From a virus: a DNA stretch of 21,949 nucleotides. Positions 2,637 through 21,949 of this stretch are shown here, in pieces; position 1 is the stretch's first letter, and every line of letters begins with the position of its first letter. The notes under the pieces were generated by a model. That model had not been told where the DNA came from, did not search any database, and saw only the letters and a program-made list of their open reading frames with translations. The position numbers were made by a program, and so were the translations under genes. The stretch covers positions 1 through 21,949 of the IMG/VR virus record IMGVR_UViG_3300021957_000361; one strand, given 5' to 3'.

Positions 2637-2665
2637 TTTCACAGTAATAGTAAAGCTATTATAAT
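2637..2665 (+). promoter_or_regulatory. Promoter with palindromic operator upstream of 565-aa tail gene
   Basis: A TATAAT -10 box lies at 2660-2665. A -35-like TTTCAC (2637-2642, 17-bp spacer) or TTCACA (2638-2643, 16-bp spacer, 5 of 6 to consensus) lies upstream. Inside the promoter is a perfect inverted repeat, TAATAG-TAAAG-CTATTA (2645-2661), of the same type found before several minus-strand operons. The palindrome centre is 28 bp upstream of the ATG at 2681. This suggests an independently regulated transcript for the distal tail genes. Confidence 0.6.
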
Positions 2666-8909: not shown

Positions 8910-8929
8910 GAATCCCTCCCTCTCCGCCA
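8910..8929 (+). other. Putative attP core: 3' end of a tRNA-Ser
   Basis: GAATCCCTCCCTCTCCGCCA matches, from memory of the family, the T-loop/T-stem/acceptor/CCA end of bacterial tRNA-Ser genes. Upstream, GGAGG (8902-8906) can still pair with the T-stem, but the loop reads ACAGAAT instead of TTCGAAT, and no anticodon or D arm is present. It is therefore a copied 3' end and not a whole tRNA. It lies about 70 bp before the tyrosine integrase, with structural genes on its other side. This is the expected place for attP, with integration into and restoration of a host serine tRNA gene. Confidence 0.7.
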
Positions 8930-8999: not shown

Positions 9000-9998
9000 A
9001 TGGCTTATATCAGAGAACGAGGCGGCAGGTATTTTGCCGAGATTCGCCGCAAGGGTTACCCCAACCAAAATAAAACCTTCCAAACAAAAGCAGCTGCTCG
9101 AGCTTGGGCTCGTCGCATTGAGACGAACATGGACGACGGTTCGTGGATCGATGCTCGTGAAACGCGATCCGTGTTCATTGAGAACATAGTCGATGAGCTT
9201 ATATATTCTTTCGAGAGGTTTGGCTTAACTGTCGCAGGCCCTAAAGTCGGGCAGCTAAATCAGATCAAAGAACATTTTACTGGTGTGTCAATTCATGATC
9301 TGACTTTTGATGACGTGCTCGACTTTGCAGCACAACGCCGCAAGACAGTATGTGCAAGCACACTCCAAACCCAGATGTATTATCTCAAGCAAGCAGTTGT
9401 AAACAGCAGAATAAAAACCGAGCAACCTGTTGTAGACATGGCAATTGATGAGCTAAAGAAAAAGAAAATTATTATGGGGAGCGTAAGACGCGACCGTCGC
9501 CTGGAACCAGGTGAGCACGAAGCGTTAATGATGGAGGCTGATGGGCATTGGATATCTGTTGCTATCGATATCGCTATTGAATCTGCTATGCGTCAGAGCG
9601 AAATACACCGCCTGAAGTGGGAAGATATCGACGAAAACAAAGGTGTTATTCAGCTGATGCGTAAAGACAAGCACGCTGAAACAGGTCGATCTGAGCAGGA
9701 AATACCTTTATTAGAGGGTGTGAGAGAGGCGCTCCTACGCGCACAGAATAGGTTTCGGCAAGGGCCAAACCTTATTCCTGTAAAGCGTGCAGCAAGCATT
9801 TCGGACAAGTTTGCTAGGATGACGGATAAGTTAGGGATTAATGACTTACGATTCCATGATCTACGTCATGAGGCGATTAGTCGGATGTTTGAGAGGGGGA
9901 TGAGGGTTGAACAAGTGCGAGTGGTGTCGGGTCATCGCACACTTGAACAACTTTCTAGGTACGTTAATTTGCGGCCGGAAGATTTAGCTGGGATGTGA
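9000..9998 (+). CDS. int: Tyrosine recombinase (phage integrase)
   Basis: A 332-aa site-specific recombinase that would integrate the phage at the attachment site just upstream. Residues 1-50 form a small arm-type DNA-binding domain (RYFAEIRRKGYPNQNKTFQTKAAARAW). Residues of about 57-160 form the core-binding (SAM-like) domain and about 165-332 the catalytic domain. The visible catalytic set is Arg198 (AMRQSE), Lys222/224 (beta-hairpin), His286-x-x-Arg289 (FHDLRH), His312 (SGHRT) and nucleophile Tyr321 (SRYVNL). All are present, so it should be active. The RBS is weak (ACGGA very close to the ATG), suggesting low translation. The last 35 bp overlap the convergent excisionase-like gene, so transcription of one opposes the other. 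Confidence 0.93.
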   Translation: MAYIRERGGRYFAEIRRKGYPNQNKTFQTKAAARAWARRIETNMDDGSWIDARETRSVFIENIVDELIYSFERFGLTVAGPKVGQLNQIKEHFTGVSIHDLTFDDVLDFAAQRRKTVCASTLQTQMYYLKQAVVNSRIKTEQPVVDMAIDELKKKKIIMGSVRRDRRLEPGEHEALMMEADGHWISVAIDIAIESAMRQSEIHRLKWEDIDENKGVIQLMRKDKHAETGRSEQEIPLLEGVREALLRAQNRFRQGPNLIPVKRAASISDKFARMTDKLGINDLRFHDLRHEAISRMFERGMRVEQVRVVSGHRTLEQLSRYVNLRPEDLAGM

Positions 9999-10176
9999 AG
10001 TATTGTGCAACACCTTGCGTTGGAAAGAGGTACTTCTTACCTCGTTTGATATGGGGCAAATCTAACTGTCCCCGATAGATCTGCTGATAAACGGACTGAC
10101 GCTTGATGCGCAAAAGCGCGGCTAGTTCTTCGAGGTCCATTAATGGTCCATATTTATTTAGTAACAATTCGTCCAT
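9964..10176 (-). CDS. Small HTH protein, excisionase/AlpA-like
   Basis: A 70-aa protein with a MerR/excisionase-type winged helix-turn-helix: MDLEELAALLRIKRQSVYQQI (residues about 13-33) then an RGQLDLPHIKRGKKYLFP wing. This is the layout of Xis/AlpA (HTH_17) proteins. Partial overlap with the integrase 3' end, convergent orientation and closeness to the attachment region support a role as recombination directionality factor. A transcriptional regulator is the main alternative. A palindromic promoter/operator-like sequence lies 41-57 bp upstream. An internal Met13 could be an alternative start, but Met1 is preceded by a GAAG/ACGG-type sequence and gives the usual length. Confidence 0.7.
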   Translation of the reverse strand: MDELLLNKYGPLMDLEELAALLRIKRQSVYQQIYRGQLDLPHIKRGKKYLFPTQGVAQYFTSQLNLPAAN

Positions 10177-10216: not shown

Positions 10217-10233
10217 CATTAGTATAGCTATTA
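10217..10233 (-). promoter_or_regulatory. Operator-like palindrome before excisionase-like gene
   Basis: CATTAG-TATAG-CTATTA: the right arm is perfect and the left arm matches 4 of 6 to the recurring TAATAG-N5-CTATTA site. On the minus strand it contains a TATACT -10-like hexamer (plus 10221-10226); the -35 region is weak. It lies between the repressor-like gene and the excisionase-like gene. Confidence 0.45.
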
Positions 10234-10245
10234 CTATGTTAGGTA

Positions 10246-10818
10246 TTATAGTTTTGGTGTTTCATAAACTATTCGCAAGACGTCATACAGTTTGTCGATT
10301 TTTTTCTTTGGAGGTAGAACGCTGACGTGGTATAGGTCGGCGCGTTTTTGGTTTTTGAGGCGGACTAATAATACCTGCTGTTGGGGGTTACTAGATTCAA
10401 TAACTTTAGCGTAGTATTCGCCGTCTGCATAAACAGACTGAACATCTCCTGAGTAACGGTACAATTTTACATCTGTTAGATCTACCCAAAAAGCACTTGG
10501 AAGCGCATGGATTGTAACTTTTTTGTTAAGTCTTTTAGACATGTCATTAGTTGCGAACCTAATAGCGTGCTCAGCTACATTTGGCAAGTGGTTGACATAG
10601 TCTGGATCAATTTCTACTGGGTCAACGCCTAGAAAGTTGGCGAACTTAACAACTGCTGCGGGCCCCAGGGGCACAACGTTGTTTAGGTAATGGGAGATAG
10701 CGCCCTGGGTCCACTCAAGATCTTTTGCAGCAGTAACCTGCGTGAACTGCATTTCACTTTTTTTCTTGTTCCAGATGCGACGCAGGTTCTCTGCGCTTTT
10801 GGGGCGATCGTTTGGCAT
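10246..10818 (-). CDS. HTH transcriptional regulator, candidate phage repressor
   Basis: A 190-aa protein. Residues of about 11-70 form a lambda-repressor-like (HTH_3/XRE) DNA-binding domain, with helix 2-turn-helix 3 at about residues 27-47 (TQVTAAKDLEWTQGAISHYLN). The C-terminal 110 residues do not show the Ser-Lys pair or GDS-type motif of LexA/S24 self-cleaving repressors, so if it is the prophage repressor its inactivation would work differently. RBS AGGACGAG lies 9 nt before the ATG. The gene starts inside the end of the VRR-NUC gene (65-bp overlap, different phase), so they share a transcript. It is the best candidate in the window to bind the repeated palindromic operators; this is inference from genome context. 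Confidence 0.72.
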   Translation of the reverse strand: MPNDRPKSAENLRRIWNKKKSEMQFTQVTAAKDLEWTQGAISHYLNNVVPLGPAAVVKFANFLGVDPVEIDPDYVNHLPNVAEHAIRFATNDMSKRLNKKVTIHALPSAFWVDLTDVKLYRYSGDVQSVYADGEYYAKVIESSNPQQQVLLVRLKNQKRADLYHVSVLPPKKKIDKLYDVLRIVYETPKL

Positions 10819-11218
10819 TTGCTTGTGCTCGTCCTGAGAATGTTACGTCATAAATCCACTGGGCTACCTGCCGTCGTGGAATACTTTGTTCGACATACAT
10901 AGATTTGCATATATTAGTGGAAAAGTCATCTACTATTATAATAGCGCTATTACTTATGCCGACTACTAAAGCTACAGAGGTGGATTGCTTCATTCGTTCT
11001 AGCCACGCTTCTTGGAGCGCGGACAGCGAATGACGAATCACGGTCGTGTCTTTCTTTGGTAGGTTTTTTATGTACTTATATTCAACGAAGAGCGTTCCTG
11101 CTGGTCCCGCATACATAGCGTCGGGGACTCCTCCCGTATACGTGTCATGGATTTTCCATTTGTACACATCAGGGTGCAGCGCATTGTGGATGGATCTTAC
11201 AAAGCTATGCTCGTTCAT
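10754..11218 (-). CDS. VRR-NUC-like PD-(D/E)XK nuclease
   Basis: A 154-aa protein with the PD-(D/E)XK core GGVPDAMY (Asp33), then VEYKY (Glu46, Lys48) and a downstream QEAWLERM helix (Gln69). This is the pattern of small phage VRR-NUC/Holliday-junction-resolvase-like nucleases. It probably cuts branched or recombining DNA. The N-terminus (MNEHSFVRSIHNAL) fits the family, although no clear Shine-Dalgarno precedes the ATG. The last 21 codons overlap the repressor candidate and encode a basic tail (AKRSPQKRREP). A perfect 14-bp inverted repeat lies 49-107 bp upstream of the start codon. The gene also contains TAATAG-CG-CTATTA at 10939-10952, which resembles the operator motif but has a shorter spacer and may be chance. 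Confidence 0.8.
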   Translation of the reverse strand: MNEHSFVRSIHNALHPDVYKWKIHDTYTGGVPDAMYAGPAGTLFVEYKYIKNLPKKDTTVIRHSLSALQEAWLERMKQSTSVALVVGISNSAIIIVDDFSTNICKSMYVEQSIPRRQVAQWIYDVTFSGRAQANAKRSPQKRREPASHLEQEKK

Positions 11219-11266
11219 AAATTAAGTGATGCGTTTCGGCTTACAGTGCATCAAGCTGTATAGAAA

Positions 11267-11325
11267 CATTAACTTTGAGTTATGACACGATATGGAGATA
11301 GTACGCGCTGTACTCAAAGTTAATG
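11267..11325. repeat. 14-bp perfect inverted repeat between operon segments
   Basis: CATTAACTTTGAGT (11267-11280) and ACTCAAAGTTAATG (11312-11325) are exact reverse complements separated by 31 bp. They fill most of the 120-bp gap between the 233-aa gene and the VRR-NUC gene. As minus-strand RNA it would form a 14-bp stem, but it is not followed by a U-run. It could be an operator pair, a processing hairpin or a replication-related site. No gene is seen in 11219-11338 apart from a 15-codon ATG ORF, which I do not call. Confidence 0.8.
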
Positions 11326-11338
11326 AGAGCCTTATTAG

Positions 11339-12040
11339 TTATTTAGCGTACTGCTCGTAGAGACCTTCAGCGGTCTTGTAATCTTCCTCCTGAGCCCAAC
11401 CAACGAACGTGACTTCACAATTCATGAATGCCTTGCCCATCTTGTTCTCGGTTGGAACGCCTGATACTTTCCACAAGCCAGCGAAACGATCACCACCCTT
11501 CATACCAATCTGAGAGTTCCACGCTTTGGAAACGCGTAGCTTGGAGCTAGCGAAGTCCATGATTGCAGGAGAGCGCTCAAGCTCACCAGTCTCAGGGTTC
11601 TTGATAAGGATAATGTGGGCGTGTGTTTCGTTGATGTCGTACTCATCAGGTTTGTCCTGATTAGCAACGTACACATCTGCGTCTGCTTGTGAACCGAACG
11701 CGCCACCATAGCCACCACCGGCTTCTAGTTTGCGCCACACAACGAATTCGGTCTTGAAGTGCAAGCTAATGCAATACAAGTCATTACCGTAGTTGTGATT
11801 GGTTAGTGTGTTAACCAAGTGACCTGGTTCACACCCTTCGACATAAGCCGCGTGATGCTTATCCACTTCGTTAGACATCTTCTGTAGAAGTTTGACGCGC
11901 GGAATTTGCACGTTTTGTCCAACGTTTTCGTTACCACGACCAGGACCATCAACGGCTTTTAGGTGTGCTGGCAAAGTGTCAGTGGATGATACGAGGCTGT
12001 TTGTTGCTACTTCTGCTACTGCTACTGCTGATTTAGACAT
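11339..12040 (-). CDS. Conserved phage protein near recombination genes, possible DNA-binding role
   Basis: A 233-aa soluble protein. After a low-complexity N-terminus (about 35 residues) it has IPRVKLLQKMSNEVDKHHA, GCEPGHLVNTLTN, a central EFVVWRKLEAGGGYGGAFGS segment and a C-terminal GDRFAGLWKVSGVPTENKMG then AFMNCEVTFVG. I recognise this layout as a conserved phage protein found beside replication and recombination genes, but I cannot name a family with certainty; a single-stranded-DNA-binding-like role is a guess from context. The RBS GAAGAG lies 8 nt before the ATG and is part of a 16-bp element repeated before the 61-aa membrane protein gene. It lies 25 bp after the coiled-coil gene in the same direction. 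Confidence 0.6.
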   Translation of the reverse strand: MSKSAVAVAEVATNSLVSSTDTLPAHLKAVDGPGRGNENVGQNVQIPRVKLLQKMSNEVDKHHAAYVEGCEPGHLVNTLTNHNYGNDLYCISLHFKTEFVVWRKLEAGGGYGGAFGSQADADVYVANQDKPDEYDINETHAHIILIKNPETGELERSPAIMDFASSKLRVSKAWNSQIGMKGGDRFAGLWKVSGVPTENKMGKAFMNCEVTFVGWAQEEDYKTAEGLYEQYAK

Positions 12041-12048
12041 AATAAATA

Positions 12049-12064
12049 CTCTTCATGATTCATG
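12049..12064 (-). repeat. 16-bp element repeated at two start sites (copy 1)
   Basis: On the minus strand CATGAATCATGAAGAG, identical to the copy at 15406-15421. It contains the palindromic core CATGA-N-TCATG and ends in the GAAGAG ribosome binding site of the gene starting at 12040. Confidence 0.6.
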
Positions 12065-12065
12065 T

Positions 12066-12431
12066 TTAAAGGTTTCGAAAGTTAATGCGCCGAATTTCAC
12101 GGGGTTGCAGACCAGGAATTTCTTCACCAAGTTTCAGAAGCTCTTTGTATGCAGTCGACGAGACCCGTCTTTGTAAGAGACTATAGTCTTTGGTGGTGTT
12201 GATATGCCCGTACAGAGCATCCCAATCAACAACGTCAGGTACAGTATCTTGGTTAATGGACACACTGGCTTTGTCATTAGCGGTACGTGACAAACCCTGC
12301 TCGTCCAATTTGGTTATGAGCTGAAAGTCCAATTCGTCTTGCTTGGCTCTTAGCTCTTTGAGTTGTGAGTTAAGCTCAGCCATCTCAGTTTTGACGGTCG
12401 AGCGTTCTTCAATAAGTTCATTGATGTTCAT
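12066..12431 (-). CDS. Conserved phage protein with N-terminal coiled coil
   Basis: A 121-aa protein. Residues 1-45 are a charged heptad-like helix (EERSTVKTEMAELNSQLKEL). Then come ASVSINQDTVPDVVDWDALY and a region LLQRRVSSTAYKELL...IPGLQPREIRRI. This C-terminal pattern (VPxVxDWDALYxxI ... LLQRR) recurs in phage early proteins of unknown function. GAAGGAG precedes the ATG by 9 nt and overlaps the end of the helicase gene, from which it is separated by 14 bp, so it belongs to the helicase operon. A partner or cofactor of the helicase/recombination proteins is possible but not shown. Confidence 0.65.
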   Translation of the reverse strand: MNINELIEERSTVKTEMAELNSQLKELRAKQDELDFQLITKLDEQGLSRTANDKASVSINQDTVPDVVDWDALYGHINTTKDYSLLQRRVSSTAYKELLKLGEEIPGLQPREIRRINFRNL

Positions 12432-12445
12432 GGGCAGTGACTCCT

Positions 12446-13786
12446 TCAGGCTGCTTGTTTAAGTTTGTTTAAGATTCCGAGTAGCTCGTCCATACGTTCT
12501 ACTTTGCCACTCAGCTTTTTGTAGACATCAGGTTCCCAGGTGTCGCGTGCTGCAATCTGAATAACTTCTGTCTTTTCGGTTTGACCTGCGCGGTAAATAC
12601 GCCGGTTGAACTGTTGGTAGTGCTCAGCGTTGTAAGTCGGTGAAGCCCAGATAACAGTCTTCGCCTTGGTCATAGTCAGGCCGTGTCCTGCTGATTGGGG
12701 GTGACAGAACACCACCTGCAGCTGGCCTGCTTGTAGCCGGTCTACAATTTCTTTGCGTCGATGGGCGGGTGCATCGCCATCGATAGTTGCATGCTTGATA
12801 CCTAGCTTGTCTGCTAGCTCAGCCATGTAACGCTGTTCGTGCTTCCAATTGAACGCTACGAGTGACTGCGCACGCTCAGCTACCAGCTGCATTACAAGGT
12901 CGTAACGTTCGGTGTGGATGCTTTGTGTTTCTCCGTGCTCGTCATATATAGAGCCAGTACATAGCTGTAACAACTTCTTGACCTTGGCACCTGCATGTAC
13001 TGCATTGATTGTTGCTTGCCCTGTATACAACACAGAGTCTTCAGACAGCTGTTTGTACTGATGCATAATCTTCTTAGGCAGAGTGACAAACATGGTCTGT
13101 ACACTCTGAGGAGGCATATCGATGCACTCTTCCAGCATGTATCGGATGTTGATGTCACACAGTGCAGCTGCCACGGTTTCTTCTGCATTGTCTTTTTGAA
13201 CCCATTCGTTAGCGAAACCATTGAACTTAGGTGTGCATACAGAAGATCGAAAACTATAGAACCTGTGACCGAGGCGCTCACCATCGTCAACGATTAGCAT
13301 GGGATGCCATAAATCTAGTATGCCGTTGCTATTGGGTGTGCCAGACATAGCAATACGGTTTGTAAATGCTTCTGCAATTTTGCGGCATGCTTTGCTGCGC
13401 TGACTGTCTTTGTTTTTGAATGCTGTGAACTCGTCGATTACTAACGTGTCGAAACCACATAGGACGTGGTAGTTCTTAGCGATCCACTTCACTGCATCGT
13501 GGTTTGTGATCACAACGTCTTCTGTACCAAGAAACGCTTTTTCACGATTCTTGGCGTACGCAATTGCATACGTAAGATCAGGTGTGAACTTATCAATATC
13601 GTCGCCCCATGAGGCTTCTAAGATGGATAGCGGTGCGAGAACCAAGGTTCGTGTACCGCGGTCAACGATTGCGTCAAGGACAGAACGTGTTTTACCAGTT
13701 CCTGGGTCAGATGTGACTAAGCATCGTGGGGTATTCTTGATGTAGTCAGTCGTGACTTTCTGGTGCTCGAAAGGTTTCATAGTCAT
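12446..13786 (-). CDS. SNF2-type SF2 helicase
   Basis: A DEAD/SNF2-like ATPase of about 446 aa that would remodel or unwind DNA during phage replication or recombination. Motifs, numbered from the GTG at 13789: Q-like FEHQ (7-10), Walker A SDPGTGKT (27-34), Ia VLAPLSIL, motif II VIDEF (117-121, DEFT instead of DEAH), motif III MSGTPNSNG (148-156), motif V region GHGLTMTKA, and motif VI QQFNRRIYRAGQTEK (392-406) with arginine fingers. This is a complete minimal helicase without extra domains. Start choice: GTG 13789, ATG 13786 and ATG 13780 are in frame; ATG 13786 is preferred, with a poor RBS. A promoter with an embedded palindrome lies directly upstream. Confidence 0.88.
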   Translation of the reverse strand: MTMKPFEHQKVTTDYIKNTPRCLVTSDPGTGKTRSVLDAIVDRGTRTLVLAPLSILEASWGDDIDKFTPDLTYAIAYAKNREKAFLGTEDVVITNHDAVKWIAKNYHVLCGFDTLVIDEFTAFKNKDSQRSKACRKIAEAFTNRIAMSGTPNSNGILDLWHPMLIVDDGERLGHRFYSFRSSVCTPKFNGFANEWVQKDNAEETVAAALCDINIRYMLEECIDMPPQSVQTMFVTLPKKIMHQYKQLSEDSVLYTGQATINAVHAGAKVKKLLQLCTGSIYDEHGETQSIHTERYDLVMQLVAERAQSLVAFNWKHEQRYMAELADKLGIKHATIDGDAPAHRRKEIVDRLQAGQLQVVFCHPQSAGHGLTMTKAKTVIWASPTYNAEHYQQFNRRIYRAGQTEKTEVIQIAARDTWEPDVYKKLSGKVERMDELLGILNKLKQAA

Positions 13787-13804
13787 CACTCATTGATGGT
13801 TTGG

Positions 13805-13834
13805 AATAATAGCATAACTATTATTAATGTTCAA
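13805..13834 (-). promoter_or_regulatory. Promoter with 21-bp palindromic operator before helicase
   Basis: On the minus strand: -35 TTGAAC (plus 13829-13834), 17-bp spacer, -10 TATTAT (plus 13806-13811) preceded by TGC (extended -10). The palindrome AATAATAG-CATAA-CTATTATT (13805-13825) has perfect 8-bp arms and covers the spacer and -10. Its centre is 29 bp upstream of the helicase ATG. It overlaps the stop codon of the Gp88-like gene. Confidence 0.7.
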
Positions 13835-14519
13835 TAAAAACAACGGGTTGGTCACTGCTCCAGCAATAACCGCATGTTGCACAGCTGTCTGTTTTACCGA
13901 GTTGTTCTGGACATATAACACCGTGCTCGACGTACTCTAAATCTCTTGATTGGACAACATGCGCGCTAAATTCTGTGTCCCAATCATCAGAGTAGCGAAT
14001 ACGAAAGCGTTGCGGGTAAATACGGTTAACGTTATTGATCATGTTGCCCAACTGTGAGTCTGCTGTGTGGTGCGTGTAACCAAACACACGTAAGTTTTCA
14101 TACTGGTTTAGCCACAGTTGCCATTGAACAATGTATTTCCCATCATAAAAGTCACCTAATACGTGGAGTCGTACAACAAAACCCTCTTTGTGTTTTTCGT
14201 TTAACGCGCGCAGCTGAACTTCAAGGTAGCTTATGAAGTTTGTATTAGTGTGGTCGAACCTGTGTGCAAACGGCATGTTGTCACCGTAGCAGTTGTCCCA
14301 CTGCTCACAATCAGAAGGGCACGTAGCGCGCTCTTCAAGGGTGAGAGAGTACATAGTCATACCTTTCCATTTCTTAACGCTTACTTTGTCGCCTAGCTTT
14401 TTGTTTTGTTTGCCGCGCTTTAACATGTTGAGGCTCGGCAGCTTTACGCCTTTGCGGTATCTCGTCCTGGGTGGGCGCAGATTTTTTACTGGGATTAGGT
14501 TCTCTGCTAAGGATGTCAT
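13824..14519 (-). CDS. Gp88-like cysteine-rich phage protein
   Basis: A 231-aa protein with two cysteine groups: Cys67-x3-Cys71-x5-Cys77 (CPSDCEQWDNCYGDNMPFAH) and Cys203-x9-Cys213-x2-Cys216-x2-Cys219 (CATCGYCW). A conserved middle, VVRLHVLGDFYDGKYIVQW and RVFGYTHH, sits between them. This is the architecture of phage proteins grouped with the mycobacteriophage gene 88 type; their biochemical role is not established to my knowledge. The seven cysteines suggest a metal or Fe-S site. RBS GGAG lies 7 nt before the ATG. Its first 146 bp overlap the end of the preceding small gene in another phase. Confidence 0.7.
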   Translation of the reverse strand: MTSLAENLIPVKNLRPPRTRYRKGVKLPSLNMLKRGKQNKKLGDKVSVKKWKGMTMYSLTLEERATCPSDCEQWDNCYGDNMPFAHRFDHTNTNFISYLEVQLRALNEKHKEGFVVRLHVLGDFYDGKYIVQWQLWLNQYENLRVFGYTHHTADSQLGNMINNVNRIYPQRFRIRYSDDWDTEFSAHVVQSRDLEYVEHGVICPEQLGKTDSCATCGYCWSSDQPVVFIEH

Positions 14520-14685
14520 CGAGGATCTCCTGTCGTAGTTCAGCGGCTGTCGTCCGATCGCATTTCGTCATGATTTTGATCTCTGACTTCTTCAAACGGT
14601 GTGTACTCCACACAATCGCTTCCTTCGGGTCGGTTACGAGCTTGTACTCGACTTTTTTCCCATCTCTTTTGTAGAGCATTTGCAT
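14374..14685 (-). CDS. Small basic protein overlapping Gp88-like gene
   Basis: A 103-aa ORF. The unique N-terminal 55 residues (for example KKVEYKLVTDPKEAIVWSTH) look protein-like. The last 48 residues are out-of-phase with the Gp88-like gene and are a basic Lys/Arg/Gln-rich tail. AAGGA lies 8 nt before the ATG at 14685. It overlaps the preceding 66-aa ORF by 146 bp as well. Either it is a real gene with an overprinted tail, or part of a frameshifted coding region. No family recognised. Confidence 0.5.
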   Translation of the reverse strand: MQMLYKRDGKKVEYKLVTDPKEAIVWSTHRLKKSEIKIMTKCDRTTAAELRQEILDDILSREPNPSKKSAPTQDEIPQRRKAAEPQHVKARQTKQKARRQSKR

Positions 14686-14740
14686 ACATCAGGTCCTTTA
14701 CTGGTTGGATAAATAATTCTTTCCATTCGTCATCGGTCAT
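14540..14740 (-). CDS. Small protein, possibly overprinted by the next gene
   Basis: A 66-aa ORF starting MTDDEWKELFIQPVKDLMYA, with a GGAG RBS 7 nt before the ATG and an 11-bp overlap with the preceding 59-aa gene. After about residue 30 it overlaps the next small gene, in the phase expected for an overprinted tail, and becomes very hydrophilic. It may be real and short, or its first 30 codons may join the next frame by a +1 shift near the GGGAAAAAAG run at about 14655-14664. Confidence 0.4.
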   Translation of the reverse strand: MTDDEWKELFIQPVKDLMYANALQKRWEKSRVQARNRPEGSDCVEYTPFEEVRDQNHDEMRSDDSR

Positions 14741-14909
14741 CAGGAAACTCCAAGTAGTGTGCTTCGTCAGCTAGTTCTAACGCTTTGTTTATTGCAGCGA
14801 GCGCTGCGGTTTCGCGGCCTGTCTGCAGCATTAATGCCATCAACTCGATTTGGAATCGTATCTTTTGGCCGTAACTTTTTGGTTCAGGTTTTTGGTTTAC
14901 TTCTTTCAT
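14730..14909 (-). CDS. Small acidic-tailed helical protein (59 aa)
   Basis: A 59-aa protein beginning MKEVNQKPEPKSYGQKIRF, with a central helix IELMALMLQTGRETAALAAI and ending ALELADEAHYLEFPDDR. GGAG lies 7 nt before the ATG. The ATG overlaps the stop of the 96-aa membrane protein (ATGA), a typical coupled arrangement, and its stop overlaps the next start by 11 bp. Its amphipathic composition and good start signals make it a credible gene; the function is unknown. Confidence 0.6.
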   Translation of the reverse strand: MKEVNQKPEPKSYGQKIRFQIELMALMLQTGRETAALAAINKALELADEAHYLEFPDDR

Positions 14910-15196
14910 GGTTGTACTCCAATCCAGCGGTAAGCGCGGTATGGGAAGGTAGAGGTTTTGACTAGTCTTAGTTCTTCGCGACGCATGGTGCGCTTCATGA
15001 TGTATAAAGTGATGGATACAATAAGACCACCAACCATCGCTGCGAACATACCGCTGTATGTGCCAGCAAACGCATACATTAAGAAGCCAGTAACAGCGAT
15101 ATCGATCGGGATGTCGTACGCGATGACACGGCGCACACCAAATTTAAAGATTAAGAACAGTAGTCCCAAGGCGGATAGCAGACCTGCAAAAAACAT
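14906..15196 (-). CDS. Small inner-membrane protein (three membrane segments)
   Basis: A 96-aa protein with hydrophobic segments at about residues 2-18 (FFAGLLSALGLLFLIF), 31-45 and 47-67 (MFAAMVGGLIVSITLYIM), and a basic cytoplasmic C-terminus (KRTMRREELRLVK). GGAG lies 6 nt before the ATG. It is 14 bp downstream of another membrane protein gene and overlaps the next by 4 bp. Small membrane proteins in early phage operons can act in superinfection exclusion or host takeover, but nothing here is specific. A holin seems less likely because the gene is in the early replication operon. Confidence 0.65.
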   Translation of the reverse strand: MFFAGLLSALGLLFLIFKFGVRRVIAYDIPIDIAVTGFLMYAFAGTYSGMFAAMVGGLIVSITLYIMKRTMRREELRLVKTSTFPYRAYRWIGVQP

Positions 15197-15210
15197 AAAT
15201 GACTCCAGGG

Positions 15211-15396
15211 TTATTGGTCGGTGTTAGAAGGAAGTTTTAGGTACATGTAAATTAGCGCGCTGACTGCAGCTGCTAGTATTACGCTGTAAAAAGAAAAGGA
15301 AATTATGGTTGTTAGTAGAGCGAGTAAGACAACGACTGAAAAGACACTCACGCAGAGCATGAGTGCTTTTGTCAGGAAGGTTTTGATATATTTCAT
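15211..15396 (-). CDS. Small membrane protein (61 aa)
   Basis: A 61-aa protein (MKYIKTFLTKALMLCVSVFS...) with two hydrophobic stretches (about residues 11-33 and 36-53) separated by a short polar turn. The frame is open further upstream to 15600, but ATG 15396 is chosen. It has GAAGAG 7-10 nt before it, and the upstream part overlaps the terminator and the nuclease gene. It is the first gene after a strong terminator, so it needs its own promoter, which I cannot place with confidence, or readthrough. Together with the next gene it forms a two-gene membrane cassette of unknown function. Confidence 0.6.
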   Translation of the reverse strand: MKYIKTFLTKALMLCVSVFSVVVLLALLTTIISFSFYSVILAAAVSALIYMYLKLPSNTDQ

Positions 15397-15405
15397 AGGG
15401 ATTCT

Positions 15406-15421
15406 CTCTTCATGATTCATG
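15406..15421 (-). repeat. 16-bp element repeated at two start sites (copy 2)
   Basis: The minus strand reads CATGAATCATGAAGAG, identical to 12049-12064. It again ends in the RBS of the next gene, here 9 bp before the ATG at 15396. Confidence 0.6.
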
Positions 15422-15448
15422 GGGATCATTTGGATTCCGATCGGGAAT

Positions 15449-15480
15449 AAAAAAGCCCTGACACATATAGTCATCAGGGC
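15449..15480 (-). terminator. Rho-independent terminator after Cas4-like nuclease
   Basis: On the minus strand GCCCTGA (plus 15474-15480) pairs with TCAGGGC (plus 15455-15461) around a 12-nt loop, followed directly by a run of six U (plus 15449-15454) and AUU. It lies 35 bp after the nuclease stop codon and separates the primase-nuclease group from the membrane-protein group. A second weak hairpin, CTTACA/TGTAAG, lies at 15487-15510 between the stop and the terminator. The gap 15397-15514 holds only these and the 16-bp element. Confidence 0.88.
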
Positions 15481-15514
15481 AAAGCTCTTACACGCAGGGG
15501 AGAATGTAAGTTGG

Positions 15515-16264
15515 TTAGCTAACACCCCAGTTGCATTCTGGTTCGTCACCTTTACGAAACGAACACCATCTGCAACTGTCTTTACTAGGTGTTGGAGCAA
15601 ATTCTGTTTCAGTTGTCATTTTGATAGCACGTCGATGAAAGCCTGGTGCAAATACCATTGCTTGATCACGTGTGTATGACTTTTTAGTGGTTTCACCTTT
15701 ATCGAGATACCAGAACTCAACTTGTACGAACTGTAAATGTGGGTATCTGAAGAAGGTGCCAATGGCGTAGAGCAACCCTTGTTGCCCGTGAGATATTTCA
15801 TTACCCCACTTCTTACCAGTTTTGTAGTCAATTACTCGGGCAGACGTGTCGTCTTCTTGTACAAGTGCATCGAGTTTGATGCGAGCCCAAGTTTCTTTCT
15901 GCATCCAACCGACTGTTGCCCAATCGAGATCAAAGCCCCACTCACCTTCTAACTCGACTTTGGCGTCGATATACAAGGCGCGTAGTTCTTCGAAGTCGTC
16001 TTTGAACTTGTGTAATGAGTCATGCATCTCACCCATAGTGCCGTTAACGTAGTCTTCAGCGTATTGGTGGATCTCTGTACCACGATCTGCAGCAGGGCCA
16101 CTAGGTTCTTTAATACCTTTGACGCGGCTGATATATGTTCGGTAGGGACATTCTTCATATACCTTGAGAGCTGAGTAGCTCCAGGCTCTGACGTCGCCGA
16201 GGGTTTCTGGTTTTTCGAAATCGACTACATCGTCGGGTCTCGTATCCTGAGTTAATTTAATCAT
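15515..16264 (-). CDS. Cas4/RecB-like PD-(D/E)XK exonuclease with Fe-S cysteines
   Basis: A 249-aa nuclease of the PDDEXK_1/Cas4-RecB type. Motifs: WSYSALKVYEECP with Cys39, RGTEIHQYAE (His66), LDALV (Asp132), VIDYKTGK (Asp146, Lys148) and the QxxLYA helix GQQGLLYAI. Three more cysteines, Cys231, Cys234 and Cys244 (CRWCSFRKGD), complete the one-plus-three pattern that holds a 4Fe-4S cluster in Cas4 and AddB. It probably processes DNA ends in phage recombination or replication. No cas genes or CRISPR array lie nearby, so an adaptation role is unlikely. AGGA lies 6 nt before the ATG. A promoter with a perfect 21-bp palindrome lies upstream and a terminator downstream, so it can form its own transcript. 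Confidence 0.87.
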   Translation of the reverse strand: MIKLTQDTRPDDVVDFEKPETLGDVRAWSYSALKVYEECPYRTYISRVKGIKEPSGPAADRGTEIHQYAEDYVNGTMGEMHDSLHKFKDDFEELRALYIDAKVELEGEWGFDLDWATVGWMQKETWARIKLDALVQEDDTSARVIDYKTGKKWGNEISHGQQGLLYAIGTFFRYPHLQFVQVEFWYLDKGETTKKSYTRDQAMVFAPGFHRRAIKMTTETEFAPTPSKDSCRWCSFRKGDEPECNWGVS

Positions 16265-16289
16265 CTACAGTCCTAGTAGTAGCAAATAG

Positions 16290-16319
16290 AATAATAGTAT
16301 ACCTATTATTACTGCACAA
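16290..16319 (-). promoter_or_regulatory. Promoter with 21-bp palindromic operator before Cas4-like nuclease
   Basis: On the minus strand: -35 TTGTGC (plus 16314-16319), 17-bp spacer, -10 TATTAT (plus 16291-16296). The palindrome AATAATAG-TATAC-CTATTATT (16290-16310) has perfect 8-bp arms. Its centre is 36 bp upstream of the nuclease ATG, and it overlaps the stop codon of the primase gene. Confidence 0.68.
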
Positions 16320-18810
16320 CAGCAAGTAACTTGCGGTCCTTGTCATCGAAGTACTTGTTAGTGACTTCGTTAAATTGCTCTGTATCTAGTTTCCAAGTAG
16401 TGACTACGCCCATAACTGTGTTGGAATTACGTGGCGCACGATGAATACGTTTTCGTTCTTTACTGACGCCACAACGTGCTGCTTTCTTTTGGAAGTCGCG
16501 TTGAGATAAACGGTCATCAGTTAGTACGCCATACACAACACGCAGGTGTTCCATCGGTATAACTGAATGAGGCCATTGAGATTCTGCTACCCACTGCTTA
16601 ACAAAGCGTTGTGCGGTAGTGATCTCTTGTCCCTGTAATACGTTAGTTAAGCTGATGTCTAGTATGTCCATGAAGAACGATAGGTTGCCATGACGTACAG
16701 CAGCGAAGAACTCTTCCATAACCGACATGGTTACTTGAGCCATCTGTGCTTTAGCGTTGTTAGCGATAGGCGTACGTACTAGCTGCTTGTTAACTTTGTA
16801 GCTACGAAGTAATGCAGCGAACTTGTGTAGCTCAGTGCTGATGTCATCGATGCCATCGATAACTTCTGGGTACACATGCTCGAGCTTCTGCTCTTGGCGA
16901 GGCGCGATGTTGTACCGACGGTCGCCTTCTTCAATCTTTACTGCATCCATACGGTTAGTCAGGAAGATGAAGTTTGTGTAGTTAGGCATCTCAACTTGGT
17001 TGGAACGCATTGCACGAATAGTCATTGTGTTTTCTGTAATAGCGTTCTTGAGTTTGTCAGCAATTTTCATGGTGCCTGTGTTAGCTGAAGCCATGTGAAA
17101 CTCATCAACTACCAGGAACAGTGCCTGCCGCATGTACAAGTTGAACTGCTCTTCGATGTTCTGTAATGCACGCATCGGTACGTGTTCGTTACCGAATAGT
17201 GGTCTAAGTACTTTGGTGTAGAAGATACCTTTACCTGTACCAGGGACACCTTGCAGTACCCAAGCAGTCATTGCTTTACGCTTGGTCTGAAAGATATATG
17301 CTAACCAGTTGGTGAAGTGCTCAACTTCAAGGCTCTGTCCTCCCAAGATGTGAGTCATCAACTTGTAGATTAATGGACAAGAGTCCGCGATCTTTGCTGC
17401 GTCACCCATGCTGAGTGGTTCGTGCTCACGGTTTGCCAGCATGTATTCTGTTTTACGAAACATGTTGATGTGATACGGCACGTTAGCCAGGTTAACAGCG
17501 TCGTCATTAGATGCAGGATCAAAGATGACACGAGCATCTGGTATGAAGTCTGGTTTACTGCGGCCGTGAGAGCGCATAAAACCTTCAATACTAGAAGCTG
17601 CACAAGGCATCAATGGAAACTCGTTACTGAATTGGTTCAGATTAGGATCGAATACACCGTTGTAGTAGGTGTCTGTGTAGAAGTCGCGCATTGCAATTGG
17701 GAAATGTGCACGTCCTTCTTTTTCCATCTCTTCTTGGTAATGATCAAACAAAGACTTGTAGAAGTCTGGGTCAGCTTGTTCGATTGACCAGATTGGCTCA
17801 CCTTTAAAGTTATACATGTAGGTGGGGTCATCGAGCTTGAAGTAATAAGCGTTGCTATCTCCACCGTTTACGTTACAGCGTATGTATGGAGGATTGTTAT
17901 CGTCTGTGATTTGTATCGACATGCGGTCCGGATTAGTCAGGATCTCTTCCGACTTATTGTCGACGGTGGCTATGGTTAGGCGTTCTTTTTTTGCTTTGAA
18001 GCCGCGTTGTGTGCGAAGTTTGTTTTTGTATTTATTGCTTTTTTGATGCACAACTTCTGGACTGATGTCTCCCATAAGTTTTGCTAGATCGAGCGTTTCT
18101 GTGATACCGGAAACACGCACAACCCGATCAGCTGCTGAGCTGAAAGGGTCGTGGGTTCCGTCTTCAAAGGTAGGAGGAGCAATGAAGATGAGTTTAGAAT
18201 TGTCAGCTACGCTGGTGTCTAACGGATACTTTAGGGAGTGCCCATTAGATGACAGTTCTAATTGATCTGAAAAAAGCTCTGATTCGAAATTAGCATTTTG
18301 TAACCATAATTTTATTGCTTTGCTAGGCATAGCGTAGGCTAATAATATAAAAATATGTAGTGATACTTTGTCGCCTTTGAGGCCAAGACTTGATGATGCT
18401 TGAGCAATAAAGCCGCAGTCTTGAACTGCTGGTGGTAGCTCGCGCATTACTGCTTTAGCTAAAGTGCTAACGTCTTGTGCATTATAAGACTTAAGATTTG
18501 TGTGATTAGGTAGCGTAATTCCATCAATATCTAGCACAAGCAAATTAGAATAACCGATGCGATCAGTTTTTCCTGCGCGTGATTCGTTTTGTATTGGTCG
18601 TTTTAAGTTACCTTTTAGAAGACAGTGGCCTTGTTGTCCATGATCGCGGATAAGCTGCTCAAGCATGGATAAGCCAGTGTTGTCTGCTGGTGTATTGTGT
18701 TCGTGTGATGTAACGCTTTTTACGTGTGGGTACGGGGTGAATCCGGTTTTGGGACAGTGTCGTTTACTCAGCCGCTGTCCATTGGCGGCTTCTAAAAAAG
18801 TAATTTGCAT
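16309..18810 (-). CDS. Primase-helicase (AEP-like N-terminus, SF3 helicase)
   Basis: An 833-aa replication protein. The N-terminal region has a primase-like acidic motif, LLVLDIDG (Asp94, Asp96), then KVSLHIF (about 148-154) and KLIFIAPP, resembling archaeo-eukaryotic primase signatures. The C-terminal half is a superfamily 3 (DUF5906/D5-like) helicase: Walker A GVPGTGKG (521-528), Walker B FLVVDEFHMA (565-573), sensor-like TNFIFLTNRMDAV and an arginine-finger region. It would prime and unwind phage DNA with the polymerase encoded just upstream. The RBS is very strong (AGGAGG, about 5 nt before ATG). It follows csrA after a 41-bp gap containing an operator-like palindrome, so it may start a new transcript. 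Confidence 0.87.
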   Translation of the reverse strand: MQITFLEAANGQRLSKRHCPKTGFTPYPHVKSVTSHEHNTPADNTGLSMLEQLIRDHGQQGHCLLKGNLKRPIQNESRAGKTDRIGYSNLLVLDIDGITLPNHTNLKSYNAQDVSTLAKAVMRELPPAVQDCGFIAQASSSLGLKGDKVSLHIFILLAYAMPSKAIKLWLQNANFESELFSDQLELSSNGHSLKYPLDTSVADNSKLIFIAPPTFEDGTHDPFSSAADRVVRVSGITETLDLAKLMGDISPEVVHQKSNKYKNKLRTQRGFKAKKERLTIATVDNKSEEILTNPDRMSIQITDDNNPPYIRCNVNGGDSNAYYFKLDDPTYMYNFKGEPIWSIEQADPDFYKSLFDHYQEEMEKEGRAHFPIAMRDFYTDTYYNGVFDPNLNQFSNEFPLMPCAASSIEGFMRSHGRSKPDFIPDARVIFDPASNDDAVNLANVPYHINMFRKTEYMLANREHEPLSMGDAAKIADSCPLIYKLMTHILGGQSLEVEHFTNWLAYIFQTKRKAMTAWVLQGVPGTGKGIFYTKVLRPLFGNEHVPMRALQNIEEQFNLYMRQALFLVVDEFHMASANTGTMKIADKLKNAITENTMTIRAMRSNQVEMPNYTNFIFLTNRMDAVKIEEGDRRYNIAPRQEQKLEHVYPEVIDGIDDISTELHKFAALLRSYKVNKQLVRTPIANNAKAQMAQVTMSVMEEFFAAVRHGNLSFFMDILDISLTNVLQGQEITTAQRFVKQWVAESQWPHSVIPMEHLRVVYGVLTDDRLSQRDFQKKAARCGVSKERKRIHRAPRNSNTVMGVVTTWKLDTEQFNEVTNKYFDDKDRKLLAVVQ

Positions 18811-18830
18811 GGCTCCTCCTACAGAGACAT

Positions 18831-18849
18831 AATAATAGCATAACTAATA
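18831..18849 (-). promoter_or_regulatory. Operator-like palindrome/extended -10 promoter before primase
   Basis: AATAATAG-CATAA-CTAATA: the left arm is perfect and the right arm has one mismatch in six to the recurring site. On the minus strand it contains TGC-TATTAT (extended -10, plus 18832-18840); the -35 region (ACTAAA) is poor. The centre is about 30 bp upstream of the primase ATG. Confidence 0.55.
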
Positions 18850-18851
18850 TG

Positions 18852-19043
18852 CTATTTAGTAGGATTTGCGTTTTTTTCGAATACTTCCTGTCGATCAATC
18901 CTGATCTTGCTGTCCGCTTCAAAGGTTAAACGGACTTGATTCCTGTCAACTTTAGAGATTTTAACTCTCGCTAAAACGCCGTTGTCGTCATCGTGGATGA
19001 CAATTTGTTCGTTAATTTTCCTTGTTAGTACCAATCGTGACAT
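18852..19043 (-). CDS. csrA: CsrA family RNA-binding regulator, phage-encoded
   Basis: A 63-aa protein matching CsrA/RsmA along its length: SRLVLTRKINEQIVI (beta-1/beta-2, with Leu4 and Arg8), VKISKVDRNQVRLTFEA (beta-3/beta-4) and IDRQEVFEK, where Arg51 corresponds to the RNA-binding Arg44 of E. coli CsrA. CsrA dimers bind GGA motifs in mRNA leaders and block or activate translation. The key RNA-binding arginines are kept, so it is probably functional. It lies 8 bp after the polymerase gene and just before the primase gene, whose leader contains AGGAGGAG. No good RBS is visible for csrA, so it is probably translated by coupling to the polymerase gene. Targets could be host or phage mRNAs. Confidence 0.88.
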   Translation of the reverse strand: MSRLVLTRKINEQIVIHDDDNGVLARVKISKVDRNQVRLTFEADSKIRIDRQEVFEKNANPTK

Positions 19044-19051
19044 TGTTATAG

Positions 19052-20854
19052 TTACTTACTGTATTTAGTGTCATATCCACCCTCCGCATCTAAAGGAATA
19101 TCTAATGCCCAACTTGGGGGGGTGCACATGTGATCAATGATCTTTTGCATTGTAACATCAGCATTAATACTATTACTAATAAAAACTATTTCGTCATGTA
19201 CTGTAAGAACAACATCTCCGCCGAGTGATTCGTCTGATTGGATAGCCAGCATCGCATCAGTAACAATTATGCGAGACAGCGCTTGGACTACGTTTTCAGT
19301 GATACGTCCGCCCCACGTAGTTTCTGTCATACGTGAGTCGTAAGTGAGCTTACCACCTTCGAACCGGAGATTGTTGTAGTGAAGGGCTAAGCCGTTAGGT
19401 AGATATATTTTATTTTGGTAGAAGCGTAACCCGTGCCACGTCTCGTCGTAGTTAGGGTTGATGGTGTTGGCCAGCTTTAGTTCTAGTTTTTTCCAAAGAA
19501 GCGGAACGCCTGAGTATGAAGTGCGATAGGTGTTCACTACATTGTATGCTTCGTCAGTGCTGAACTTCATAGATGGGCCCATAGCACCTGCTTCTAGTGT
19601 TGCTTGGAACTTAGGTGCGCCCATTCCATAACCTAGACCGAGCACAGCTGTCTTGCCGACGAAGCGTTCTGTCGGGTCGTCGTCTTTGTTAATTGGCCGG
19701 TCGTAGATTACAGATGCGAGATTGCTGTAGATATCCTCGCCGTCACGAAACTGATTTAGTAAGTCGTGTTCGTCGGCAAGCCATGCGAGCATGCGTGCCT
19801 CGATGTTAGACAAGTCAGCAACATAAACGAAATGGTCTTTTGGTGAGCACAAAGCTAGGCGCAGTGGGGATTTGCGCGGCATGTTCTGCATGTTGATTTT
19901 TTCTGTACCACCGAAGCGGCCAGTATGGGCAGCATAATAACGTAATGGCACAGAGATGGTGCCATCATCGTGCGTTGCGTCGATGAAGCGTTGAGCCCTG
20001 GTCTCGTTGATGCGACTCTTTACTGCTTTACGTGCATCCCAAATGTGCTTGAACTGGGGGTACATGTTCTGCATTTGAGTAAACGCTTTGTCGTTTTTAC
20101 CTAATGCAGGTATGTCTTTGCCGGTAGTAGGGCTGACTTTGGTCGGTGGTACTAGGCCCATACTATATATGTGTTCTGCAAATTGTTGATTGGAGCTGAG
20201 TACTTTGCGGCACACACCTGCTGCATCGATGAGCGCCTCACTGGCCGCGATAGTTTCGTCACGGAACGTGATTAGTGCTTCGCGGTCTACGATCAGTTTT
20301 GGTTCACAGAACATACGACAAGTCAGGTCGATTAACTCAAGCTCAGACATTGGCATTTGTTCTACCATTCTTTGGTACAAAGCGTAAGTTAGGTCGACAT
20401 CTTGTATGCAGTAGCCTGCTAAGGCTTCTTCTGTTTCAGGGTCGAGATCATATATACCTTTGGCGTCTGTAAGTTCTTCACCTTTTCGCATTGATTGGTC
20501 GTCAGGGAACTCACGTATGGCACAATCTTTAAGACGCGCTGACTGCCCAGGGGCTAGTGCGCGCGCCATTGCGGCCGTGTCTACGTAGAAGTTAGGGATT
20601 ACGCCGTAGTGTCTGGTTAGGATATAACCGTCGAATGGCGTGTTGTGGCATACAAGTGTTACGGTGCTCCAGTCGATGTCGCGGATCGCGGCTTCAGCTT
20701 CGTCCTCACCGAACCATTCTGTTTCTTCGTGGTCAATCTTGATGCCTACGCCCCACACTTTGAATTTCTCGTGTCGGACGTAATCCATTGTAGTTAGTTT
20801 AGTAAGGGATACTTTGGTATCGAAGTAGGTTTCGAAGTCGAGAGTAACGAGCAT
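19052..20854 (-). CDS. polA: Family A DNA polymerase with 3'-5' exonuclease
   Basis: A 600-aa replicative polymerase without a 5'-3' exonuclease domain, as usual in phages. Proofreading domain: Exo I LDFETY (Asp6, Glu8), Exo II CHNTPFDGY (Asp75), Exo III YCIQDVDL (Tyr148, Asp152). Polymerase domain: YYAAHTGRFGG, motif A VADLSNIEAR (Asp347, Glu352), O-helix ERFVGKTAVLGLGYGMG (Arg397, Lys401, Tyr409) and motif C TVHDEIVF (His553-Asp554). All catalytic residues are present. The position equivalent to E. coli Pol I Phe762 is Leu405 (codon 19640-19642). Its ATG overlaps the stop of the preceding small gene by one base (TGATG). csrA and the primase follow, forming the replication core. Confidence 0.95.
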   Translation of the reverse strand: MLVTLDFETYFDTKVSLTKLTTMDYVRHEKFKVWGVGIKIDHEETEWFGEDEAEAAIRDIDWSTVTLVCHNTPFDGYILTRHYGVIPNFYVDTAAMARALAPGQSARLKDCAIREFPDDQSMRKGEELTDAKGIYDLDPETEEALAGYCIQDVDLTYALYQRMVEQMPMSELELIDLTCRMFCEPKLIVDREALITFRDETIAASEALIDAAGVCRKVLSSNQQFAEHIYSMGLVPPTKVSPTTGKDIPALGKNDKAFTQMQNMYPQFKHIWDARKAVKSRINETRAQRFIDATHDDGTISVPLRYYAAHTGRFGGTEKINMQNMPRKSPLRLALCSPKDHFVYVADLSNIEARMLAWLADEHDLLNQFRDGEDIYSNLASVIYDRPINKDDDPTERFVGKTAVLGLGYGMGAPKFQATLEAGAMGPSMKFSTDEAYNVVNTYRTSYSGVPLLWKKLELKLANTINPNYDETWHGLRFYQNKIYLPNGLALHYNNLRFEGGKLTYDSRMTETTWGGRITENVVQALSRIIVTDAMLAIQSDESLGGDVVLTVHDEIVFISNSINADVTMQKIIDHMCTPPSWALDIPLDAEGGYDTKYSK

Positions 20855-21057
20855 CAGAAAGGTAGCTCCGTGTTAGTGTCATCGCAGGCATACTGCGCCA
20901 TGATTTCGTTTTCGATACATTTGAATCGGGACTTAAGTTCGTTATATGCCTCGGGCATCCGCGACTTCATCCATACAGCGGTATAGACGTGGAACTCGGG
21001 GTGTATGCTGTCTTCTTCTAGGCTTGGCAGGTTTTGGAAAAACTCTTTTGTCTTCAT
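20854..21057 (-). CDS. Small acidic phage protein before polymerase
   Basis: A 67-aa protein, MKTKEFFQNLPSLEEDSIHP..., with a helical C-terminal half (PEAYNELKSRFKCIENEIMA) and an acidic end. The frame is open back to 21126, but ATG 21057 has a strong GGAGG 6 nt upstream, so the shorter form is chosen. Its first 116 bp overlap the preceding gene in another phase, and its stop overlaps the polymerase start (TGATG), implying coupling with the polymerase. No family recognised. Confidence 0.6.
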   Translation of the reverse strand: MKTKEFFQNLPSLEEDSIHPEFHVYTAVWMKSRMPEAYNELKSRFKCIENEIMAQYACDDTNTELPF

Positions 21058-21247
21058 TGCACCCTCCTCGGTGAAATATTTCGATGACTGTGTGTGCGTT
21101 CCACTTCTCACGGGTGTATTGGTCATCAGTGATTACAAATAGATTACGGTCGTCATCGCAGACCAGGTAACAGGTCTTCTTGAGTTCGTGTTGTATAAAG
21201 TGACCTTCTTCTACAGCTGCTTGAATATCCGTGAAACAACTACTCAT
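20942..21247 (-). CDS. Small phage protein with overprinted basic tail
   Basis: A 101-aa ORF beginning MSSCFTDIQAAVEEGHFIQH. Residues 1-62 (including CYLVCDDDRNLFVITDDQ) look like a compact alpha/beta domain. Residues of about 64-101 overlap the next gene out of phase and are basic and Pro-rich (KPAKPRRRQHTP). The ATG overlaps the stop of the DUF3310 gene by 8 bp (ATGAGTAG). It is probably real because of this coupling, but the tail may be a by-product of late termination. Function unknown. Confidence 0.58.
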   Translation of the reverse strand: MSSCFTDIQAAVEEGHFIQHELKKTCYLVCDDDRNLFVITDDQYTREKWNAHTVIEIFHRGGCNEDKRVFPKPAKPRRRQHTPRVPRLYRCMDEVADARGI

Positions 21248-21572
21248 TTTCTTTGGTGACCATCTTGGTCAGCTTGTCTAAGTACCAGCCAGCTTTCTGT
21301 AAGTCCTCTACCTGCTTGCCTTTATAGTCATACCTCCAAAGGTATTTCATACAGTTGCCCTTGAGGTACCCCTTAAACGCTACTGAAGACATAGACTCTT
21401 CAATACCTTCAATACACTCGATGTTTCCAGTGTTGTAATGGCGGGGTGCGTTTACGGGGTCATTTATTGGTGGTTGGTCGTACGGGTCGACGTATTCTTC
21501 TTTTTGCCAGTGTTCTAATCCTGTTTTTTTAAGCCTGTCCCAGTCTTGAGGTGTTGCGTCGTTTATACTCAT
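21240..21572 (-). CDS. DUF3310 family phage protein
   Basis: A 110-aa protein with the DUF3310 core: DPVNAPRHYNTGNIECIEGI (residues about 38-57), then YLKGNCMKYLWRYDYKGK and EDLQKAGWYLDKL. The family is widespread in phage early regions and sometimes labelled nucleotide kinase-like; its biochemical activity is unproven. Two adjacent ATGs exist (21575 and 21572); the second has the better spacing to GGAGAG (6 nt). A promoter-like sequence with a variant of the recurring palindrome lies just upstream, making it the first gene of the polymerase operon. The gap 21573-21627 contains only that promoter. Confidence 0.88.
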   Translation of the reverse strand: MSINDATPQDWDRLKKTGLEHWQKEEYVDPYDQPPINDPVNAPRHYNTGNIECIEGIEESMSSVAFKGYLKGNCMKYLWRYDYKGKQVEDLQKAGWYLDKLTKMVTKENE

Positions 21573-21595
21573 CATACTCTCCTAGTAAGAGCGAA

Positions 21596-21624
21596 ATAGT
21601 ACTACTGCTATTATATTAGTTCAA
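21596..21624 (-). promoter_or_regulatory. Promoter with variant operator before DUF3310-polymerase operon
   Basis: On the minus strand: -35 TTGAAC (plus 21619-21624), 17-bp spacer, -10 TACTAT (plus 21596-21601). It has the same -35 as the helicase promoter. The inverted repeat here is AATAG...CTATT with an 8-bp spacer (plus 21595-21612), a longer-spaced variant of the recurring motif. Its centre is about 32 bp upstream of the DUF3310 ATG. Confidence 0.6.
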
Positions 21625-21627
21625 GTA

Positions 21628-21949
21628 TTACAGCTGGATATGCGTCGTTTGTCCCCAGGGGGCTTCGTGACGTTCCGTTGAAACCCATAAAACTGGGTAC
21701 ATTGGTTGCTCACCAAAGTCATGTGACTCGAGGTCGGTGAGATACACAGCTGCTTCTACATCCGGATAGTGTTCGTTGATGTAATCAAACGCTGGGCTGA
21801 ACGCAGTGCCGCCACCGCCTGTTACGGGCGTCATTGGGAACTGGTCATCAGGCATAATTTCATCAACATGTGCTACTTTTGTATCTACATGGAGAATCGT
21901 CATTTGAGATGGTCGCAACTCTCCATGAATAGCTGACATTTCACTGATG
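21628..21949 (-). CDS. VWA-like/DUF2201 metallopeptidase-like protein, C-terminal part
   Basis: The frame is open to the right edge of the window, so only the last 106 residues are seen; the ATG at 21939 is probably internal. The segment SQMTILHVDTKVAHVDEI, then VTGGGGTAFSPAFDYINEHYPD and AAVYLTDLESHDFG, matches the C-terminal von Willebrand A-like domain of DUF2201 proteins (GGGGT-x-F-x-P-x-F and T/D-D). Such proteins are often encoded with a MoxR-type AAA+ ATPase in phages and bacteria, and that partner would lie outside the window. Their phage role is unknown. It ends 55 bp before the DUF3310 gene. Confidence 0.78.
   Translation of the reverse strand, partial: ISEMSAIHGELRPSQMTILHVDTKVAHVDEIMPDDQFPMTPVTGGGGTAFSPAFDYINEHYPDVEAAVYLTDLESHDFGEQPMYPVLWVSTERHEAPWGQTTHIQL

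Follow-up and report, generated by a model that had tools for sequence, protein, structure and literature searches.

A family of dispersed palindromes as probable operators of a lambda-CI-like phage repressor

Short palindromes scattered through a phage sequence and its relatives are very probably the DNA-binding sites of a phage repressor. We consider it highly likely, from comparison of the sequences, that a lambda-CI-like protein encoded by the phage itself, a 190-aa helix-turn-helix (HTH) protein, uses them as operators, and that the bound protein represses early genes. Palindrome and protein would then very probably constitute the master off-switch of the phage and its binding sites. A first-pass annotation had proposed that a single DNA-binding protein, probably this same HTH protein, governs a regulon spanning the phage, and that proposal is supported by the intergenic placement of the sites, by their recurrence before orthologous genes and by their covariation with the protein in both presence and sequence.

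The stretch of DNA analyzed (the window) is a virus record of 21,949 bp in a single fragment. Its plus strand carries the structural genes and the integrase, while the minus strand encodes DUF3310, DNA polymerase I, CsrA, a DUF5906 primase/helicase, a Cas4-like exonuclease, a GP88-like protein, an SNF2-type helicase, a Pam3 gp34-like protein, a small nuclease-like protein (named VRR), the HTH protein and an HTH_17 excisionase-like protein. The phage CsrA (63 aa, window 18852-19043, minus strand) lies between DNA polymerase and primase in 70 related contigs. For comparison we used 80 related contigs from IMG/VR, retrieved via the primase. The closest cultured phages are KPP25/phiR18, with 33% primase identity, and the group is one of little-known marine phages that, as far as searched, is represented in metagenomes only.

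The family-wide element reads TA[T/A]TA[G/C]-N5-[G/C]TA[T/A]TA and spans 17 bp in a 7-3-7 layout. The consensus in the relatives is TATTAGY-N3-RCTAATA, and the form in the window is TAATAG-N5-CTATTA. Its spacer is fixed at 5 bp, with 305 exact copies in the contigs of the primase set, and any other spacer from 0 to 12 bp yields 0–13 copies. The window holds six exact copies of the family code (shuffled sequences have none) and three copies with one mismatch, one of them at 4532 and the others in Table 1; most of the copies lie in inter-gene gaps. Each of five further contigs (37–61 kb) contains 5–12 exact copies where a Markov model predicts at most 0.05, and most of these copies lie within the 3–6% of the sequence that is intergenic. 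Across the relatives, 370 of 514 loose copies are intergenic versus 14 of 41 for a reversed control, so the motif is not equally common inside genes. A collection scan for TATTAGYTATACTAATA was left out of the statistics.

Table 1. Proposed operators, promoter-like elements and associated genes in the window
Feature	Position	Strand	Location or composition	Relatives or other support
Operator, exact (TAATAGTAAAGCTATTA)	2645..2661		28 bp before internal virion protein gene at 2681 (+)	Same site in G010, L005, L007
Tyrosine integrase	9000..9998	+	PHROG integrase	Found in 35 related contigs
HTH_17 excisionase-like protein	9964..10176	-		Found in 36 related contigs
Degenerate operator (CATTAGTATAGCTATTA)	10217..10233		Before HTH_17 gene	One mismatch to family code; site in 18 relatives
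190-aa lambda-CI-like HTH protein, proposed repressor	10246..10818	-		Presence and sequence covary with operators
Sigma70-like promoter, TTGAAC-N17-TATTAT	13806..13834	-	Overlapped by operator	TTG in register at 31/41 helicase sites
Operator, exact	13807..13823		Before SNF2-type helicase gene	41 sites before helicase genes
Promoter-like element, TTGTGC-N17-TATTAT	16291..16319	-		TTG in register at 1/62 sites
Operator, exact	16292..16308		Before Cas4-like exonuclease gene; holds TATACT (16301-16296)	62 sites
Operator, exact, mixed half-sites (TAATAG..CTAATA)	18833..18849		Before primase gene	38 sites before primase genes
Operator-like sequence, exact	19165..19181		Inside DNA polymerase gene, directly after HDE motif	
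Sigma70-like promoter, TTGAAC-N17-TACTAT	21596..21624	-	Overlapped by tandem pair	TTG in register at 12/26 DUF3310 sites
Tandem pair, first operator (TAGTACTACTGCTATTA)	21597..21613		Before DUF3310 gene	One mismatch
Tandem pair, second operator (TATTAGTTCAAGTATTA)	21614..21630		Before DUF3310 gene	Exact

The motif as first proposed, AATAATAG-N5-CTATTATT, has five matches in the window with up to three mismatches against 0.18 expected, and none of 100 shuffles reaches five. Its copies at 13805-13825 and 16290-16310 are indeed perfect, while those at 18831-18851 and 21595-21615 carry two and three mismatches, respectively. The copy at 10217, which had also been called perfect or near-perfect, is degenerate, and the supposed longer-spaced variant at 21595 turns out to be a tandem pair of ordinary operators with 5-bp spacers; such pairs before DUF3310, 17 bp apart, are also present in G001 and G005. 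A good copy at 2643-2663 in the structural (plus-strand) arm had been overlooked. The first-pass annotation placed sites in most of the larger gaps of the early arm, which is true of five of the eight gaps of at least 20 bp, but the two largest (15197-15514 and 11219-11338) are empty. A cluster resembling a site, TAATAGCGCTATTATAATAG, at about 10936-10952 within the VRR-like gene was dropped for its wrong spacing and coding location.

Related phages keep sites before the same orthologous genes, most often before the Cas4-like, helicase and primase genes (Table 1), followed by DUF3310 (26 sites) and HTH_17. The sites persist down to 42% primase identity (L089/L090), where tandem copies with GATTAG half-sites are found. 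In four genomes a site lies about 230 bp upstream of the major head protein gene, and other genes of the structural arm in relatives also have sites nearby. The operator-like sequence in the DNA polymerase gene (polA) also recurs: 49 of 81 genes match with at most one mismatch at this point, compared with 2.3% of other polA windows, although it is absent from L059, L088 and several HTH-bearing lineages. Since the residues encoded there vary (ISQAN, ITSTN, ISNSIN), selection on the DNA is favored; constraint on the protein is a possible explanation as well.

The occurrence of the sites follows that of the HTH gene. Among loci whose sequence extends through the gene following VRR, those encoding the HTH protein, either in full or as a stand-alone HTH domain of 72–86 aa, carry the sites, and intergenic sites are missing from L059 and L088, the two without it. 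The palindrome was likewise not found in the scanned parts of KPP25 (34 kb) and phiA008 (27 kb). Most members of a second set of loci, found via the HTH protein and overlapping the first, agree with this pattern. A few HTH-bearing loci score zero in a simple scan, some of which carry other half-sites such as TAATAC, and the sites in G005, L051 and L078 are mostly mixed or degenerate.

The HTH domain aligns with that of lambda CI without gaps (profile E-value 3.2e-8), and its predicted model (mean pLDDT 92) superposes on lambda CI at 1.1–1.3 A over 71 residues. The C-terminal domain is modeled confidently as beta-rich. This half has no S24 signature, with neither an S24 Pfam match nor a conserved serine in the C-terminal alignment, and its fold gives no confident match, the CI C-terminal domain appearing at an E-value of 4.8. 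RecA-driven self-cleavage is therefore unlikely. In cultured phages, the only relative of the HTH domain found is a DicA domain with 40% identity.

Further evidence linking protein and palindrome comes from the letters of the half-sites. Where the loop that follows the recognition helix contains a proline, the half-sites are TAATA[GC], with A in 17 of 20 sites; with other loop residues the half-sites are TATTAG, and A is found in 14 of 271. The proline types are VVPL in the window, ETPL in G010/L007, and QTPL in L033 and in L157/L168. A third helix type, HYIANINKLN (L082/L085/L087), is associated with TAGTAG half-sites. On a tree of 69 proteins, well-supported branches force three changes of the proline label, which may be gains or losses. 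The covariation P-value of 8e-7 overstates the case because it treats the proteins as independent, and it is these repeated changes that carry the argument. By alignment, the proline adjoins the equivalent of CI Asn55, a known DNA contact. That the proline reads half-site position 3 directly was considered and dropped, as correlation is what the data show.

Several of the sites overlap promoter-like elements. Three promoters of the form TTGxxC-17 bp-TATTAT/TACTAT had been read at the palindromes, and all three are present as written (Table 1), but the TTG at the 16290 site is not conserved. Among 264 oriented distinct contexts in the relatives, 81 have a TTG placed exactly 17 bp ahead of the right arm; other offsets give 0–23. 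This register derives from helicase and DUF3310 sites (Table 1) and from those of cl26 (8 of 11) and the major head protein (4 of 4), and is mostly missing from Cas4-like sites and from primase sites (3 of 38); the promoter part of the earlier proposal is borne out at some of the sites. Part of the helicase signal may be coding, since its -35 element shares bases with the conserved 3′ end of the GP88-like gene. What is conserved at the Cas4-like site is instead the TATACT inside the operator, and it is kept without the palindrome arms in L059, which has no HTH gene, and in L054, whose contig ends before the HTH position. Operator and promoter-like element are thus separable, as expected for repression.

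These features are consistent with the following mechanism. A dimer of the HTH protein would bind TA[T/A]TA[G/C]Y-N3-R[G/C]TA[T/A]TA through two 7-bp half-sites around a 3-bp center. At the best-conserved sites the operator would cover the -10 element of a sigma70-type promoter, so that the bound protein would block RNA polymerase. The protein would control genes of replication and recombination (DUF3310, primase, Cas4-like exonuclease and helicase) as well as the excisionase-like gene and some genes for virion proteins. As the repressor gene is the second-last in the early arm that it is proposed to control, early transcription would also make the repressor. The outcome would be a self-limiting early program and, with the adjacent integrase and excisionase, a silent lysogen state. 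A temperate context is present in many of the relatives, as the integrase and excisionase-like counts in Table 1 indicate. The exceptions are L075, L076, L077 and L083, which have no integrase beside VRR and keep the operators together with the small HTH-only protein. Lysogeny is therefore not the whole story. More tentatively, a CI-type repressor lacking an S24 signature, with a dozen scattered operators and the polA site, may serve as a self-timing brake on early genes during lysogeny and lytic growth alike, of which the integrase-less relatives keep the DNA-binding domain alone; the operator letter, switched together with the proline more than once, may then define natural immunity groups.

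The same protein could also act at most of its sites by halting elongation between genes and not at promoters, as in mycobacteriophage L5. We regard this as rather unlikely, although TTG-N17 is not conserved at many sites, chiefly those before the Cas4-like and primase genes, one site lies inside polA, and sites of the L5 type are for the most part not associated with promoters. Such sites are asymmetric and follow the direction of transcription, whereas the present ones are palindromic; elements resembling promoters recur at the helicase, DUF3310, cl26 and major head protein sites, and the TATACT of the Cas4-like site outlives the palindrome arms. That the protein instead switches on middle or early genes from these sites seems improbable: the integrase-less relatives do retain an HTH-only version, which would suit an activator, but the operator covers the -10 element, where a bound protein is expected to block the polymerase, and the promoter-like TATACT of L059 persists without operator or protein.

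Explanations that dispense with the phage protein have very little in their favor. Sites of a host regulator exploited by the phage would not be expected to vanish with the phage HTH gene, nor their letters to follow the protein that this gene encodes, and we hold this origin to be highly improbable. Equally slight is the chance that the palindromes are RNA hairpins for processing or stability, or mobile palindromic repeats. Their intergenic position would fit, and any palindrome can fold in RNA, yet the arms are A+T-rich with no intrinsic-terminator T-tract, and their letters are near-identical within each genome, which a hairpin does not need. Conserved positions with differing flanks argue against mobile repeats, and the covariation with a DNA-binding protein argues against both. 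Rfam has no family at the sites, with one weak match elsewhere that is far below the gathering score.

Repression by the CI-like protein can be compared with several known systems. Lambda CI operators are 17 bp long. The likeness to lambda CI lies in the gapless HTH alignment and in the 17-bp palindrome, here with its 7-3-7 layout. In contrast, CI operators are grouped at two control regions, while the present sites are scattered genome-wide and have a different half-site; the C-terminal domain shows no signature of the S24 (LexA-like) peptidase with its Ser/Lys dyad and no confident fold match, and the gene is located late in the early arm. The phiC31 repressor is known for dispersed inverted repeats at early promoters that are conserved among relatives, but its host group is unrelated. 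The C1 protein of P1 represses lytic genes from dispersed 17-bp operators (PMC8546580), and the present phages resemble P1 in their many widely dispersed sites of that length. The P1 operator, ATTGCTCTAATAAATTT, is asymmetric, whereas the sites here are palindromic, the comparison being one of operators. Cluster A mycobacteriophage repressors (L5, Bxb1) have 20–30 dispersed sites, and motif and repressor diverge together (PMC6550527). Dispersal and joint divergence among relatives are shared, but their sites are asymmetric and mostly outside promoters, while several of the present palindromes lie over promoter-like elements. The SPbeta element SPBRE was, like the present family, a repeated intergenic element first read from sequence, and was later shown to be the site of the MrpR master repressor (PMC10516654). 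MrpR differs from the CI-like protein described here in having a tyrosine-recombinase fold, and its motif is 15 bp long.

As in these dispersed-operator systems, a short motif is repeated above chance and a phage protein is matched to it, here through covariation. While dispersed phage operators are known from P1 C1, L5 and SPbeta MrpR, this protein/operator pair appears to be undescribed. As far as comparison shows, the system would join P1 C1, the L5-type repressors and SPbeta MrpR. Its own traits are the palindromic CI-like operator, the gene order and a repressor that lacks an S24 signature. This assigns a likely regulator, operator code and regulon to a phage group known, as far as searches went, from metagenomes alone, and would make it possible to predict immunity groups and the capacity for lysogeny from sequence alone. 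The covariation of protein and operator, with three proline changes on the tree, offers a natural experiment on the specificity of lambda-type repressors.

Some other features of these phages were observed. A 20-nt sequence upstream of the integrase (window 8910-8929, GAATCCCTCCCTCTCCGCCA) resembles the 3′ terminus of a serine-type tRNA; relatives carry it with small changes, and it is a likely attP core. ARAGORN found no tRNA genes in the phage contigs scanned. The gene for a 1184-aa structural protein (4375-7929) has a long array of 15/30-nt repeats (window 5150-7100) with 39 copies of one family. The contigs of L088, L089 and L090 are binned in metagenome-assembled genomes of Neomarinimicrobiota, Planctomycetaceae and Rhodospirillaceae. 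At least one of these bin labels is doubtful because the HTH proteins of L089 and L090 are near-identical, and a host assignment from the three matches was dropped, their host names being inconsistent. The 61-kb contig G007 (L091-L094), classed as linear, has the integrase region at both ends, and may therefore be a complete, circularly permuted genome.
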